Assembly: GCF_011067135.1 (NCBI RefSeq) | Contig: NZ_JAAMOW010000010.1 | Location: 124,001-188,000, forward strand | Length of the DNA stretch: 64,000 nt | Direction: 5' to 3' | From: Solimonas terrae | Lineage (GTDB): Bacteria; Pseudomonadota; Gammaproteobacteria; Nevskiales; Nevskiaceae | Shown: positions 13,794 to 50,888 of the stretch, in pieces | Numbering within the stretch: the first letter of the stretch is position 1 | Layout: every line of letters starts with the position of its first letter | Made by a program: the position numbers and the translations under genes | Notes under the pieces: model-generated | Seen by the model: only the letters and a program-made list of their open reading frames with translations | Database searches by the model: none | Told to the model about the DNA's origin: nothing

Positions 13794-14208
13794 ACACCTG
13801 CTGGTGCTTGGTCGCAGCATAGCCCTGACGGCGATAGAACGCGTGGGCGCGCTCGCGGCTCAGATTGGAGCGCACGCGCACTTCGTGATGGCCGCGCTGC
13901 CGTGCCCAGTTCTCCGCCGCCGCGACCAGCGCCGCACCGATGCCGGTGCTGCGCAGCTGCTCGTCGACGACCAGTCCGGCGATTTCCGCGAAGCTTTCGC
14001 TTTCCAGCGAATGTCGCAGCATCACGTGCAGCCAGCCGGTGACGGCGTCATCGCTGACGGCCACCAGCACAGCGTGATCGGCCTTTGCGAGCAGGATATG
14101 CAGGCGTCTGCGATGCGCATCGGCGTCGTCGCGGTAGCCGAACATCGCCGACAGGCGGGAGATCGTCGGCGCGTCGTCGGGCGTCGCGACACGCAGGGTG
14201 TACTTCAT
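13774..14208 (-). CDS. GNAT family N-acetyltransferase
   Basis: A 144-residue GCN5-type acetyltransferase transferring acetyl from acetyl-CoA to an unidentified amine. It starts MKYTLRVATPDDAPTISRLS and has the acetyl-CoA-binding motif A, AGLVVDEQLRSTGIGAALV (Q/RxxGxG/A as RSTGIGA), and the C-terminal NLSRERAHAFYRRQGY segment. The start at 14208 has GGAGG 7 bp upstream; the longer open frame to 14304 lacks homology. It is convergent with the AhpD-like gene, and its last codons form one arm of a strong hairpin. Confidence 0.88.
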   Translation of the reverse strand: MKYTLRVATPDDAPTISRLSAMFGYRDDADAHRRRLHILLAKADHAVLVAVSDDAVTGWLHVMLRHSLESESFAEIAGLVVDEQLRSTGIGAALVAAAENWARQRGHHEVRVRSNLSRERAHAFYRRQGYAATKHQQVFAKRIS

Positions 14209-14327
14209 CGCAGCCTCCGGCCGGGCGGGTCGTTCAGCCGCCATTGTGCAGCGATGCGCGATACCGCGGCAGCGGCCGGGATCTGCGCGGCCGTGCCCGA
14301 TCACGCCTTCGAAGGGATATCAGAGCC

Positions 14328-15284
14328 ATGTTGAGCATCCACCGCAATGATCATCGCGAGCCCGTCGTCTGGCATGCCGGCGAGGATTTTCCCGCTGGTG
14401 CCGTCTGGTTCGATCTGTCGGCGCCGGACAGCGACGAGCTGCGACGCATCGAAGCGATGACCGGGTCCGCCGTGCCGAGACCCGAGCAGCTCAGCGCGTT
14501 GGGACTCGCACAACGCAATCGCGACGACGAGCACACCCTGCACATGCAGCTCACCTTGTTCGCGGACGAAGCCGGCGCCGTGGACACACCGCTTGGTATC
14601 GCCCTCGACGAGCGGTTCATGATCAGCCTCGCCTATACGCCCTCGTCGATCGTCGAACACGCCGGCAGCCAGTGGCGACAGGCGCGCGAGCAGACGCCGG
14701 CCTCGGCGTTCGCCATGCTGCTCGAAACCGCGATCAACGAGATCGCCGCACGGATGCAGCAGATCGCTGCCGATCTGGCAACGCTGTCGGACGAAGTGTT
14801 TGTCGAGCGTGCGCGGCGTACCGACGAGCTGCACGACATGATGCTTCGGGTGGGCCGGCTCGAAGGTCGGCTCGCACGCTTCCGGCCGTCGCTGCTCGGT
14901 TTCGCGCGCACCCTGGGTTTCGTCGACAACCGCGCACCGGACTGGCTGTCGAAGGCCGCGCGCTCGCGGCTCAAGGTGATCGCCAGCGATCTGAAGACGC
15001 TCGAAGAGTTCGACGACCAGCTGACCGAGAAACTGCAGTTCCTGCTCGACGCCATCCTCGGCTTCATCAGCACCGCGCAGAACGCGGTGATGAAACTGCT
15101 GACCGTGGTGTCGGTCGTCACCATTCCACCCGTCATCCTCGCTGGCGTCTGGGGAATGAACTTCCGGCACATGCCGGAACTCGACAAGCTCTGGGGCTAT
15201 CCGGCGGCGCTCACCGCATTGCTGCTGAGCATGCTGCCGCCGCTGCTGTGGTTCAGGCTGCGCGGCTGGCTGGGGAAGGATTGA
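14328..15284 (+). CDS. CorA/ZntB family divalent cation transporter
   Basis: A 318-residue CorA-superfamily transporter, a pentameric inner-membrane channel for Mg2+ (CorA) or Zn2+ (ZntB). A long cytoplasmic domain ends in a helical stalk (SRLKVIASDLKTLEEFDDQL), then two C-terminal membrane helices with the pore signature GVWGMNF (GMN at 276-278) between them. The loop MPELD follows the GMN motif, as in ZntB/CorA proteins. Start 14328 is chosen because upstream codons to 14085 overlap the GNAT gene and are not conserved. Substrate metal not decided. Confidence 0.9.
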   Translation: MLSIHRNDHREPVVWHAGEDFPAGAVWFDLSAPDSDELRRIEAMTGSAVPRPEQLSALGLAQRNRDDEHTLHMQLTLFADEAGAVDTPLGIALDERFMISLAYTPSSIVEHAGSQWRQAREQTPASAFAMLLETAINEIAARMQQIAADLATLSDEVFVERARRTDELHDMMLRVGRLEGRLARFRPSLLGFARTLGFVDNRAPDWLSKAARSRLKVIASDLKTLEEFDDQLTEKLQFLLDAILGFISTAQNAVMKLLTVVSVVTIPPVILAGVWGMNFRHMPELDKLWGYPAALTALLLSMLPPLLWFRLRGWLGKD

Positions 15285-15303
15285 GTGGAGCGGCCTTGCG
15301 CCG

Positions 15304-15487
15304 GAAATGGCGACGCGGACGTTGAAGTCCGCTGGCATTCGCTGAAATCGTGCGCTCGGAGCGGGGCCTCAACCCCGCTCGTTCGTGCGGCAGGAAGCGC
15401 CACTGGCGCTTCCTGAAATCCTGCACTCGACAATGGGGCCCCAGCCCCATTGGTTCGCCCGGCAAGGATTGCCACTGGCAATCCTTG
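15304..15487. repeat. Structured double-hairpin repeat: two full copies and a degenerate third
   Basis: Copy A (15344-15414, 71 nt) and copy B (15415-15486, 72 nt) each carry an 8-bp stem followed by an 11-bp stem. Stem 1 is GAGCGGGG/CCCCGCTC in A and CAATGGGG/CCCCATTG in B. Stem 2 is AGGAAGCGCC/GGCGCTTCCT in A and AAGGATTGCC/GGCAATCCTT in B, both with loop ACT. All seven base-pair differences between copies are compensated on the other arm. A decayed third copy lies at 15304-15343 with stem GCGGAC/GTCCGC. It sits between two convergent genes and has no T-run. Confidence 0.85.
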
Positions 15488-15498
15488 AAAGCCCGGGC

Positions 15499-17148
15499 TC
15501 ACTCCCAGACCACTTTTTCCTTGACGTTGGGCGCGTGCTTCTCGAGCAGCTCGCCGTACTTTTTCTCGACCTCGTTGCGCTTGACCTTCATGGTCGGCGT
15601 CATGATGTTGTTGTCGATCGTCCATGCGTCCCTGGCGACGATGATCTTGGCGATCTCTTCGTGGTTTTCGAGCGTGGCGTTGACGGCATTCATTTCGGCG
15701 ATCAGGCCGGCTTCGACTTCGGAGCGGGGCTTGCGGGCGCCGTCGGCGCTGAGCGTGACGATCATGATCGGCTGCTTGAGGCCGGTGCCGACGAAGCAGA
15801 GCTGGTCGATGTCGGTATCGCGCGACAGCGCGCCTTCGATCGGCGCCGGCGCAACGTACTTGCCCTTGAGCGTCTTGAAGATGTCCTTGGTGCGGCCAGT
15901 GATGTACAGATAGCCGTCTTCGTCGATGCGGCCCTTGTCTCCGGTGCGCAACCAGCCGTCGCTGGTGAACAGCTCGGCGGTCTTTTCGGCGTCGTGGTAG
16001 TAGCCCTGCGTGACGGCGGCATGCTTGAACTGGATTTCGCCGTCTTCGGCGATGCGCATGTCGGCACCGGGCTGTGCACGGCCCACCGAACCCCAGCGGT
16101 TGGCGCCCGGCAGGTTGGCAGTGGCGTAGATGTTGTTTTCGGTCATGCCGTAGCCCTGCAGCACGTCGATGTCGAGCCTGGCCAGCCATTTCATCAGCGG
16201 GATCGGCATCGGCGCGGCGCCGACGAACAGATAGCGGGCGTTCTGCAGGCCCATGCCTTTCTTGATCTTCTTCTTGATCAGCGACGACACCACCGGGATC
16301 TTCAGCAGGCGATCGAGTTTCTTCTGCGGCAGCTTCTTGAGGATGCCGGCCTGGAAGCGGCCGTAGACCAGCGGGACGCCGAAGAAGCGCGTCGGCGCGA
16401 CTTCCGGCAGCTGCTCGGCGAGCTTCTCGAGGTTCTCGAGGAAGAACACTTCGGCGCCGTAGTAGATCGAACCGAGTTCGACCGCGCCGCGTTCGAAGGC
16501 ATGGGCAAGCGGCAGGTACGAGAAGAAGCGCTCCTGGCCCTTGCCCGGCATCGCCTTGAGCATGCCCTCGCCGGCGAACAGCATGTTGCCGATCGTGATG
16601 ATCACACCCTTGGGGTTGCCGGTGGTGCCCGAGGTGTAGATCAGGGTGTAGATCGACGACGGATCGGGCGTCTGGTAGCCGGCGAACGGCTCGGACGCGC
16701 GCACCAGGTCGTCCCATTTGTGATCGCACTGGCCGACGCCTTCGTACGGGAAGCCGATCTTGATCGTGCCTTCCGGTACCGCGGCCATGAACTCGTCGGC
16801 GTCCGGCATCGGCCCGACGAAGATCGCCTTGGTGTCGGAATGCGTCAGGATGAACTTGACGGCGTCGCCCGACTGCTTCGGATACAGGCCGACACTGATG
16901 TAACCGGCCATCGCGATCGCCAGATCGGCGAGGAACCAGTGTGCGGTATTGCGGCCGGAGATTGCGATGCGCGAACCGGCCGGCAGACCGAGCTTGCGCA
17001 GCGCCGTGGCCATGCCGCGGACCTGGGCTTCGCATTCGGCAAAACTGTATTTCTTCCAGATGCCGTCGACCGGTTGATACAGCCAGGCCTTGTTCGGCTG
17101 CTCCTTGGCCCACTGCAGCAGCATTTCGACCGGATTCTTGAGAGACAT
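15499..17148 (-). CDS. Long-chain acyl-CoA synthetase (AMP-binding)
   Basis: A 549-residue ATP-dependent fatty acyl-CoA ligase of the FAA/long-chain type. It shows the P-loop-like motif YTSGTTGNPKGV, the adenylate motif QGYGMTENN, GWLRTGDKGRIDEDGYLYITGR and the LKTLKGKYVAP-type C-terminal hinge (IFKTLKGKYVAPAPIE). It activates free fatty acids for beta-oxidation or lipid synthesis and fits with the fad genes at 23.7-29.5 kb and the storage-lipid operon. The stop lies 12 bp beyond the double-hairpin repeat. The upstream frame beyond 17148 is unconserved. Confidence 0.93.
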   Translation of the reverse strand: MSLKNPVEMLLQWAKEQPNKAWLYQPVDGIWKKYSFAECEAQVRGMATALRKLGLPAGSRIAISGRNTAHWFLADLAIAMAGYISVGLYPKQSGDAVKFILTHSDTKAIFVGPMPDADEFMAAVPEGTIKIGFPYEGVGQCDHKWDDLVRASEPFAGYQTPDPSSIYTLIYTSGTTGNPKGVIITIGNMLFAGEGMLKAMPGKGQERFFSYLPLAHAFERGAVELGSIYYGAEVFFLENLEKLAEQLPEVAPTRFFGVPLVYGRFQAGILKKLPQKKLDRLLKIPVVSSLIKKKIKKGMGLQNARYLFVGAAPMPIPLMKWLARLDIDVLQGYGMTENNIYATANLPGANRWGSVGRAQPGADMRIAEDGEIQFKHAAVTQGYYHDAEKTAELFTSDGWLRTGDKGRIDEDGYLYITGRTKDIFKTLKGKYVAPAPIEGALSRDTDIDQLCFVGTGLKQPIMIVTLSADGARKPRSEVEAGLIAEMNAVNATLENHEEIAKIIVARDAWTIDNNIMTPTMKVKRNEVEKKYGELLEKHAPNVKEKVVWE

Positions 17149-30303: not shown

Positions 30304-30374
30304 GGCCCGAGTTCGCACCGGCGATGCTCGCTGTGCTTCAGCACAGCTGCGCGTGGCCGGCGCGAACTCGGGCC
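30304..30374. repeat. Long inverted repeat with a nested hairpin
   Basis: GGCCCGAGTTCGC (30304-30316) is an exact inverted copy of GCGAACTCGGGCC (30362-30374). Near the centre lies GCTGTGC-TTCA-GCACAGC (30330-30347), a 7-bp stem. It sits between tetR and the MOSC gene and has no T-run, so it resembles a palindromic intergenic element. Confidence 0.75.
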
Positions 30375-34682: not shown

Positions 34683-34718
34683 AAAAAGGGACGGCGGATC
34701 GCGCCGCCGTCCCTTTTT
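34683..34718. terminator. Bidirectional terminator between DUF4097 gene and purH
   Basis: A 15-bp perfect stem: AAAAAGGGACGGCGG (34683-34697) pairs with CCGCCGTCCCTTTTT (34704-34718) around ATCGCG. It has a T-run on the plus strand and, through the A-run, on the minus strand, so it can end both convergent units. Confidence 0.9.
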
Positions 34719-50813: not shown

Positions 50814-50888
50814 GGACGGTTAGCTCAGCGGTAGAGCATCGCCTTCACACGGCGGGGGTCGGGGGTTCGAAACCCTCACCGTCCACCA
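50814..50888 (+). tRNA. tRNA-Val (anticodon CAC)
   Basis: A 75-nt cloverleaf. Acceptor GGACGGT pairs with ACCGTCC, D arm GCTC/GAGC, anticodon stem TCGCC/GGCGG with loop TTCACAC (anticodon CAC, reading GTG), T arm GGGGG-TTCGAAA-CCCTC, encoded CCA end. One G-U pair in the T stem. It is followed after 13 bp by a terminator. Confidence 0.95.

Follow-up and report, generated by a model that had tools for sequence, protein, structure and literature searches.

Hairpin repeats between two Solimonas genes as probable copies of a small REP-like mobile element of the Nevskiaceae

The gap between a CorA-type transporter open reading frame (ORF) and an AMP-binding acyl-CoA ligase gene, in the 64-kb stretch of DNA analysed as a whole and here called the window, is the site of two 72-nt repeat units. 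Both are probably copies of a REP-like repeat with two hairpins, a small mobile element of the Nevskiaceae that is non-autonomous. The element is dispersed, its sites are found empty in congeners, and one of its ends is precise. The conserved feature is the ability of a strand to fold into two hairpins, A and B, with a one-sided bulge, and the constraint most likely acts on DNA rather than on the RNA of one strand.

Coordinates of the units and of neighbouring features are in Table 1. The two genes are convergent, as the initial annotation of this DNA had it, the transporter ORF ending at 15284 on the + strand and the ligase gene at 15499 on the - strand. The same annotation described two adjacent units with two hairpins each, and this is confirmed: the unit spacing is 72 nt, hairpin A has 8 bp in unit 1 and 9 bp in unit 2, and the inner stem of hairpin B has 11 bp. 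Its two-stem description was right for A and for the inner part of B, but the 6-bp outer stem of B was missed. The complete hairpin B also has a bulge of about 5 nt, on one side only, between this outer stem and the inner one, and a loop of 3 nt. Both hairpins can be folded on either DNA strand in both units, and in single-strand DNA folding 0 of 200 shuffles are equally stable (z of -6.4 on the + and -6.0 on the - strand for unit 1, and of -7.3 and -7.5 for unit 2). Read on the - strand, a unit displays an unpaired TGA-containing head and then the bulged hairpin, which gives it a REP-like look. The precise end of the element is GTGAGC... on this strand (the GCTCAC end on the + strand), and in the window the repeat extends at its right end over the stop codon of the ligase gene (15499-15501).

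Table 1. Features of the repeat locus, in window coordinates
Feature	Position	Strand	Remarks
CorA-like Mg2+ transporter ORF	14085..15284	+	neighbour; start codon uncertain
Weak remnant of a further unit (right half)	15315..15353	+	local match; no covariance-model report
Repeat unit 1	15355..15430 (approx.)	+	covariance model, unit comparison, DNA folding
Unit 1 hairpin A	arms 15359-15366 / 15373-15380	+	8 bp
Unit 1 hairpin B	outer 15385-15390 / 15421-15426; inner 15391-15401 / 15405-15415; bulge 15416-15420	+	
Repeat unit 2	15427..15504 (approx.)	+	covariance model 97.8 bits, unit comparison, DNA folding
Unit 2 hairpin A	arms 15431-15439 / 15444-15452	+	9 bp
Unit 2 hairpin B	outer 15457-15462 / 15493-15498; inner 15463-15473 / 15477-15487; bulge 15488-15492	+	
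Unpaired head GTGA, end of element	15499..15502	-	its TGA (15499-15501) is the ligase stop codon
AMP-binding acyl-CoA ligase gene	15499..17148	-	neighbour; 3' end at 15499

A third, degraded copy had been proposed ahead of the two units. A local match is indeed present at 15315-15353, with a score of 15.5 against unit 1, which 3 of 1000 letter shuffles attain; for the match to unit 2 the number is 40 of 1000. However it is weak, and the covariance-model scan of the window does not report it. At Rfam gathering thresholds the only match in the whole 64-kb window is a tRNA at 50814-50885, with none at the repeat, and no terminator-like or promoter-like sites were found within 15200-15600. Two other inverted repeats were seen elsewhere in the window. 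One of 24 nt (30304-30374; 88% complementary, 23-nt spacer) is unrelated to the two-hairpin repeat, and a perfect one of 15 nt (34683-34718; AAAAAGGGACGGCGG/CCGCCGTCCCTTTTT) is similar in appearance to a bidirectional terminator.

When the two units are compared, 10 of 25 stem pairs differ (3/8 in A, 4/11 in inner B and 3/6 in outer B). Nine of these differences are compensated on the other arm, and the tenth is a change of G-T to G-C. A ninth pair of A is formed only in unit 2, where C-G corresponds by eye to C-A in unit 1; with this further one-sided difference, 9 of 11 stem differences are compensated over the whole structure. The earlier claim that the copies differ only by compensated base pairs is thus exact for the two stems then described, but not for the structure as a whole. 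Unpaired positions also differ between the units.

Further copies, which the initial annotation proposed to look for in this genome and in relatives, are present in both. An alignment of 20 copies (A2) was the basis of a covariance model, R1. In A2, 96.7% of 520 pair cells are paired and 20 of 26 pairs show double changes; 94 cells have a double change, 5 a one-sided standard change, and about 17 are unpaired. On any of five measures, 0 of 500 shuffles are as high. The signal is lost when partner columns are slid by 1-3, a control that is biased towards the drawn structure because that structure was drawn from one of the copies in A2. Model R1 reports 9 places in the window's genome at E<=0.001, counting the two units of the window, and 8 with stricter filters. 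BLAST undercounts the family: it gives only 2 further convincing places there, both downstream of lysS (named by NCBIfam), versus 7 further ones with R1 at E<=0.001. Among relatives, R1 has matches in 38 of the 58 genomes searched from the Nevskiaceae, the window's family, covering 11 of 12 genera, and in 3 of 142 other genomes drawn from the class. Carrying genomes of the family have 1-25 copies at E<=0.001, counted with stricter filters by which weak matches are lost. A named genome collection, scanned for an exact pattern, yields 28 stretches. Of these, 26 belong to records under the names Solimonas, Panacagrimonas, Nevskia, Stenotrophobium, Nevskiaceae or Nevskiales, and one each comes from a Lysobacteraceae and a Gammaproteobacteria MAG.

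The head of 122 copies is GTGA in 75 and CTGA in 18, and 29 have no TGA. Tandem units, read by eye, are repeated head to tail, and many copies in a Panacagrimonas MAG (G026) are near-identical. Some copies (L095, L096 and L047) are found beside or inside longer dispersed repeats that also hold a CTTTTCTTTG..CAAAGAAAAG palindrome. Next to the ligase copy of S. marina (L029), whose genome has 5 matches to Y1_Tnp (PF01797), there is an inverted pair of TGTAGGAGCGGCGCAAGCCGCGA-like palindromes, which we take to resemble Pseudomonas REPs.

At some loci the element lies between direct copies of a neighbouring sequence. A search with 100 sources gave 122 matches in 103 clusters, of which 102 were testable and one was skipped. 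A target copy was counted if the sequence left of the element recurs to its right with a score of at least 14; clusters were merged and a same-locus control was used because orthologous loci that share a target inflate the shuffled-partner null. A direct target copy is found at 26 of the 102 loci, these being the best-listed places among the matches listed plus places in the own genome and not a random sample. In 25 of the 26, the right copy starts at most 4 nt from the head (the GCTCAC end). A control taken 240 nt further gives 0/102, and permuted partners give a mean of 0.45 and a maximum of 4. Long target copies that start at the head, at a quarter of the tested loci, are apparently new.

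The target copies are about 15-60 nt long, some longer and imperfect, and thus variable in length. Targets include the 3' ends of genes (lysS, hisI and rpoD by NCBIfam), the 5' starts of genes read by eye as tatD, mtnC and nirB, terminator-like hairpins (also by eye) and tRNA genes. In loci read by eye, the intact gene is on the hairpin-A side. At lysS and at the gene read as tatD (L027:3300-3600, L046, L193, L133), an inverted partial target, such as GCGGAAAAAG following CTTTTTCCGC, is present between the first target copy and the element, so that the order is target, inverted target, element, target. Outside the Nevskiaceae, three other families show the same layout, with target copies at 6 of 13 loci, three of them from one array; the targets are tRNA-Met, -Thr, -Lys and -Gly genes. 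On one side of the tRNA-Met gene of one such genome (G100) there are seven units, each made up of an incomplete tRNA and an element; the other side has two units that are weaker and face the opposite way.

Occupied and empty sites can be compared directly at rpoD and hisI. At rpoD, a single target with no element is seen in 10 of 11 genomes of the genus (by eye and by model), and 0 of these 10 relatives show an element beside the single target. The remaining genome, S. aquatica (G010), displays target-element-target, and its second target copy is followed by a stop codon and a terminator-like hairpin. At hisI, 10 of 11 genomes are empty (by eye and by model) and only the window's genome is occupied, in the order target-element-target-element-target. 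In the model check of the two loci, matches above chance are found only in L268 and L279. The empty congeneric sites at rpoD and hisI reveal insertion with long target duplication. Two features of mobile elements are thus present, i.e., sites occupied in some relatives and empty in others (1/11 occupied at rpoD, 1/11 at hisI and 5/11 at the ligase gene) and direct target duplication at the element ends (25/102 loci); a mobile repeat with an unseen transposase, as the initial annotation suggested, fits both. As a separate observation, downstream of the rpoD stop codon in the window's own genome (L273), ATTGCCGGCGGCAGTCC resembles part of hairpin B and is not reported by the model.

The head often supplies the stop codon of a gene. 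Automatic classing puts 38 of 102 clusters in a TGA-stop class, in which the head's TGA ends the longest reading frame that runs into the element from the side of the head. Because a longer frame overlaps, it misplaced the window locus and others, which were read by eye. Of these 38 clusters 33 are without and 5 with a target copy. A different cut-off gives the TGA frame as the longest in 38 of 79 loci and the other two frames in 16 and 8. By its gene, the window locus is of the TGA-stop class, and no target copy is present there. At the ligase locus a repeat is present in 5 of the 11 genomes from the genus and ends at the same base in each, with stems that are different but paired; G007 and G008, the closest to the window's genome, have no repeat at this locus. 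This pattern reflects either an old insertion lost in some species or a site hit more than once. In all, 76 of 102 loci are without a target copy, and in the Panacagrimonas MAG (G026) 0 of 16 loci have one, which the insertion model does not account for. The model has to allow for another route of insertion, or for loss.

Selection for structure, put forward in the initial annotation, is supported, and mismatches in the stems bear on the level at which it acts. In the 100 best of 122 copies, 2551 stem cells comprise 2427 Watson-Crick pairs, 33 G-T, 34 A-C and 57 other mismatches; all 122 copies have 43 G-T and 46 A-C. G-U but not A-C would be tolerated in a + strand RNA, and A-C but not G-U in a - strand RNA, so the equal rarity of the two over these larger sets places the constraint most likely on DNA and not on one-strand RNA. 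A bias of the model does not explain the equality, since the model favours G-U in choosing its hits. The 30 best copies, with 10 A-C and 3 G-T, lean towards what - strand RNA would allow, and this is read as small-number noise. A repeat that works as RNA, be it a terminator, a stabiliser of mRNA 3' ends or a small RNA, would agree with the strong RNA folds on both strands and with the position at gene 3' ends. However we consider it very unlikely, given that G-U is no commoner than A-C in 100 or 122 copies, that neither Rfam nor the search of 15200-15600 gave a match at the repeat, and that copies are also found upstream of gene starts (those read by eye above) and at both ends of a tRNA gene. 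Compensation itself is strong but not absolute. Of 113 copies, 40 have no imperfect stem pair, 34 have one, 21 two and 18 three or more; thus uncompensated changes, which according to the initial annotation would speak against its reading, do occur, 73 copies having at least one non-Watson-Crick pair, but compensation is still strong. The closest copies at different loci (<=4 stem differences) show 120 double versus 60 single changes in 75 pairs, and copies at one locus (<=7 stem differences) show 9 double versus 25 single changes in 17 pairs, a comparison whose P value is only a guide, given unlike cut-offs (4 vs 7) and pairs that are not independent. These counts support the earlier suggestion that preformed variant hairpins are amplified, and are read as a filter, whereby mainly well-folded copies spread and copies in arrays drift. 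Compensated changes could also arise without any selection by template switching during replication, one arm being copied onto the other (quasipalindrome correction). PMC8794818 documents such switching for RNA genes. Both sides are changed in 16 of 28 copy pairs that differ at one stem position (pairs not independent), and 108 classified double changes include 33 GC-CG or AT-TA flips and 25 other transversions, all without a wobble intermediate. As an explanation it is possible but doubtful: copies at one locus, presumably the youngest, mostly show single changes, so that correction is not immediate, and many copies stay imperfect. Template-switch correction between arms may nevertheless add to the filter.

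Similar weighing applies to how the copies came to be where they are. Tandem duplication or slippage at hairpins, rather than insertion, would account for the target-element-target-element-target arrays at hisI, lysS and the G100 tRNA-Met gene. It is quite unlikely in view of the single target-element-target at rpoD with terminator-like sequence after the second copy, the one rpoD target without element in 10/10 other genomes of the genus, and the start of duplications at the head in 25/26 loci. The copies could also belong to an ordinary REP/BIME family that is moved in trans by a RAYT (TnpA-REP), possibly lost from many genomes. The repeat shares the anatomy that the consulted portions of PMC8266576 and PMC3733652 give for REP elements, with a tetranucleotide head, a bulged hairpin, a location often between convergent genes and a head that can be a stop codon, and Y1_Tnp matches are present in 14 of the 28 repeat-bearing genomes of the family covered by both searches, among them that of the window with 3. 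Y1_Tnp was found in 37 of 61 genomes searched (85 rows). However no repeat above chance is present within about 1.5 kb of the match at 52 of the 85 rows (30 loci, then 20 stretches holding 22 rows); one 13-bit match near a Y1_Tnp (L316) is at chance level. In the 37 family genomes covered by both searches, a Y1 match is absent from 14/28 repeat-bearing versus 4/9 repeat-free genomes, i.e., the presence of the one is not associated with that of the other. S. aquatica (G010), with its clean rpoD insertion, has no Y1_Tnp at E<=1e-5. Heads read GTGA or CTGA and not GTAG/GTGG, and larger target duplications are not made by IS200/IS605 elements, according to PMC2817692. A RAYT moving the repeat is therefore unlikely; it was rejected as mover on the lack of nearby repeats at the 52 rows and of a presence association, and the RAYT link raised in the initial annotation is not supported. 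A bacterial SINE-like retroelement inserted by target-primed reverse transcription would explain one precise end, a variable other end and target duplications of variable length, but it is highly improbable. Reverse transcriptase (PF00078) is found in only 3/15 repeat-bearing versus 4/8 repeat-free of 23 genomes, shows no association with the repeat and was rejected as mover, and there is no clear sign of RNA constraint. Three genomes (G003, G004 and G008) have the repeat and neither Y1_Tnp nor PF00078. In G026, Pfam shows no transposase in the 5 ORFs of one interval between neighbouring copies (L324); urate-oxidase N-terminal and LuxR-type domains were found, and three ORFs have no match.

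For the preferred reading, that of a small non-autonomous mobile element, the following course may be envisaged. The element would move as folded single-stranded DNA, with the head and the bulged hairpin as the features by which it is recognised. New sites would be reached mainly by well-folded copies, so that dispersed copies would be compensated and array copies would gather uncompensated changes. The head end would be joined precisely, and the other end would be completed by DNA synthesis that restarts (re-priming) a variable distance back on the target. Such restarted synthesis would duplicate about 15-60 nt and leave the gene or tRNA intact. After insertion the element may be mostly neutral at gene ends, its TGA being able to serve as a stop codon. 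More tentatively, it could represent a distinct class of miniature mobile DNA in Gammaproteobacteria, which would travel as a folded single strand without a RAYT, be joined precisely by its TGA-containing head within the terminal part of a gene or tRNA, and re-copy a variable 15-60 nt of target, so repairing the gene it enters; we regard this wider proposal as possible rather than probable.

The spread of REP-like palindromes is an open question, their "dissemination mechanisms" being "poorly understood" in the words of the abstract of PMC8266576. Long target copies that start at the head are footprints reported for no REP in the portions of the literature examined. They give the insertion point, the direction and, with congeners, the empty site, and thus make the mechanism testable. 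The comparison of G-T with A-C mismatches is a simple test of whether a hairpin acts at the DNA or RNA level, and is applicable to other bacterial repeats.

Like REPs of the GTAG type (group 2 with a bulged stem), the Solimonas repeat has a bulged DNA hairpin with four unpaired head nucleotides at its foot and is intergenic. It differs in its head, which is GTGA/CTGA and not GTAG or GT(A/G)G, in the second hairpin A of each unit, in its long target duplications, and in having no linked RAYT at 52/85 Y1_Tnp rows, where copies do not flank the gene as in a REPtron. Copy number is also low: REPs usually exceed 100 copies per genome, as stated in the abstract of PMC2817692, in contrast to 1-25 per carrying genome here at E<=0.001. 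The alternating (inverted) orientation of BIMEs and REPINs is not found in the tandem units read by eye; opposite-facing copies are seen on the two flanks of the G100 tRNA gene. The REP/BIME-like label of the initial annotation fits the anatomy. The REPINs of Pseudomonas fluorescens (PMC3116915) are similar in their compensatory hairpin changes and in tandem clusters with flanking sequence repeated, and their excision has been observed; however they are REP doublets that fold into one hairpin, whereas hairpins A and B of the Solimonas repeat differ from each other and its units follow one another head to tail. CGTC-tagged REPs (PMC3733652, in part) are likewise tagged palindromes without a dedicated transposase, but have another tag and are mostly alpha-proteobacterial; the word stem "duplicat" is absent from the text of that paper.

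In the open-access literature no work was found on Solimonas hairpin repeat elements, and the best-matching publications, in the parts consulted, describe neither this repeat nor REP-like repeats with long target duplications. A similar layout exists in Escherichia coli K-12 (1285800-1287300; L331), where three repeats lie downstream of the tyrV tRNA and each of them closes with a copy of the tRNA's 3' end. These tyrT/tyrV repeats, presumably the 178-bp repeats, rtT, have an internal TTGCC..GGCAA hairpin and show target-element-target-element order, with part of the tRNA after each GC-rich unit. They were rejected as family members, the best model score being 7.5 bits (not significant) and no sequence relation being seen. 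Integron attC sites act as a folded single strand with extrahelical bases, as the Solimonas repeat may also do; long target duplications are not known from attC recombination. We call the Solimonas repeat a REP-like variant that works like a mobile palindrome and departs from REPs in the three tested features of head, RAYT flanking and copy number.
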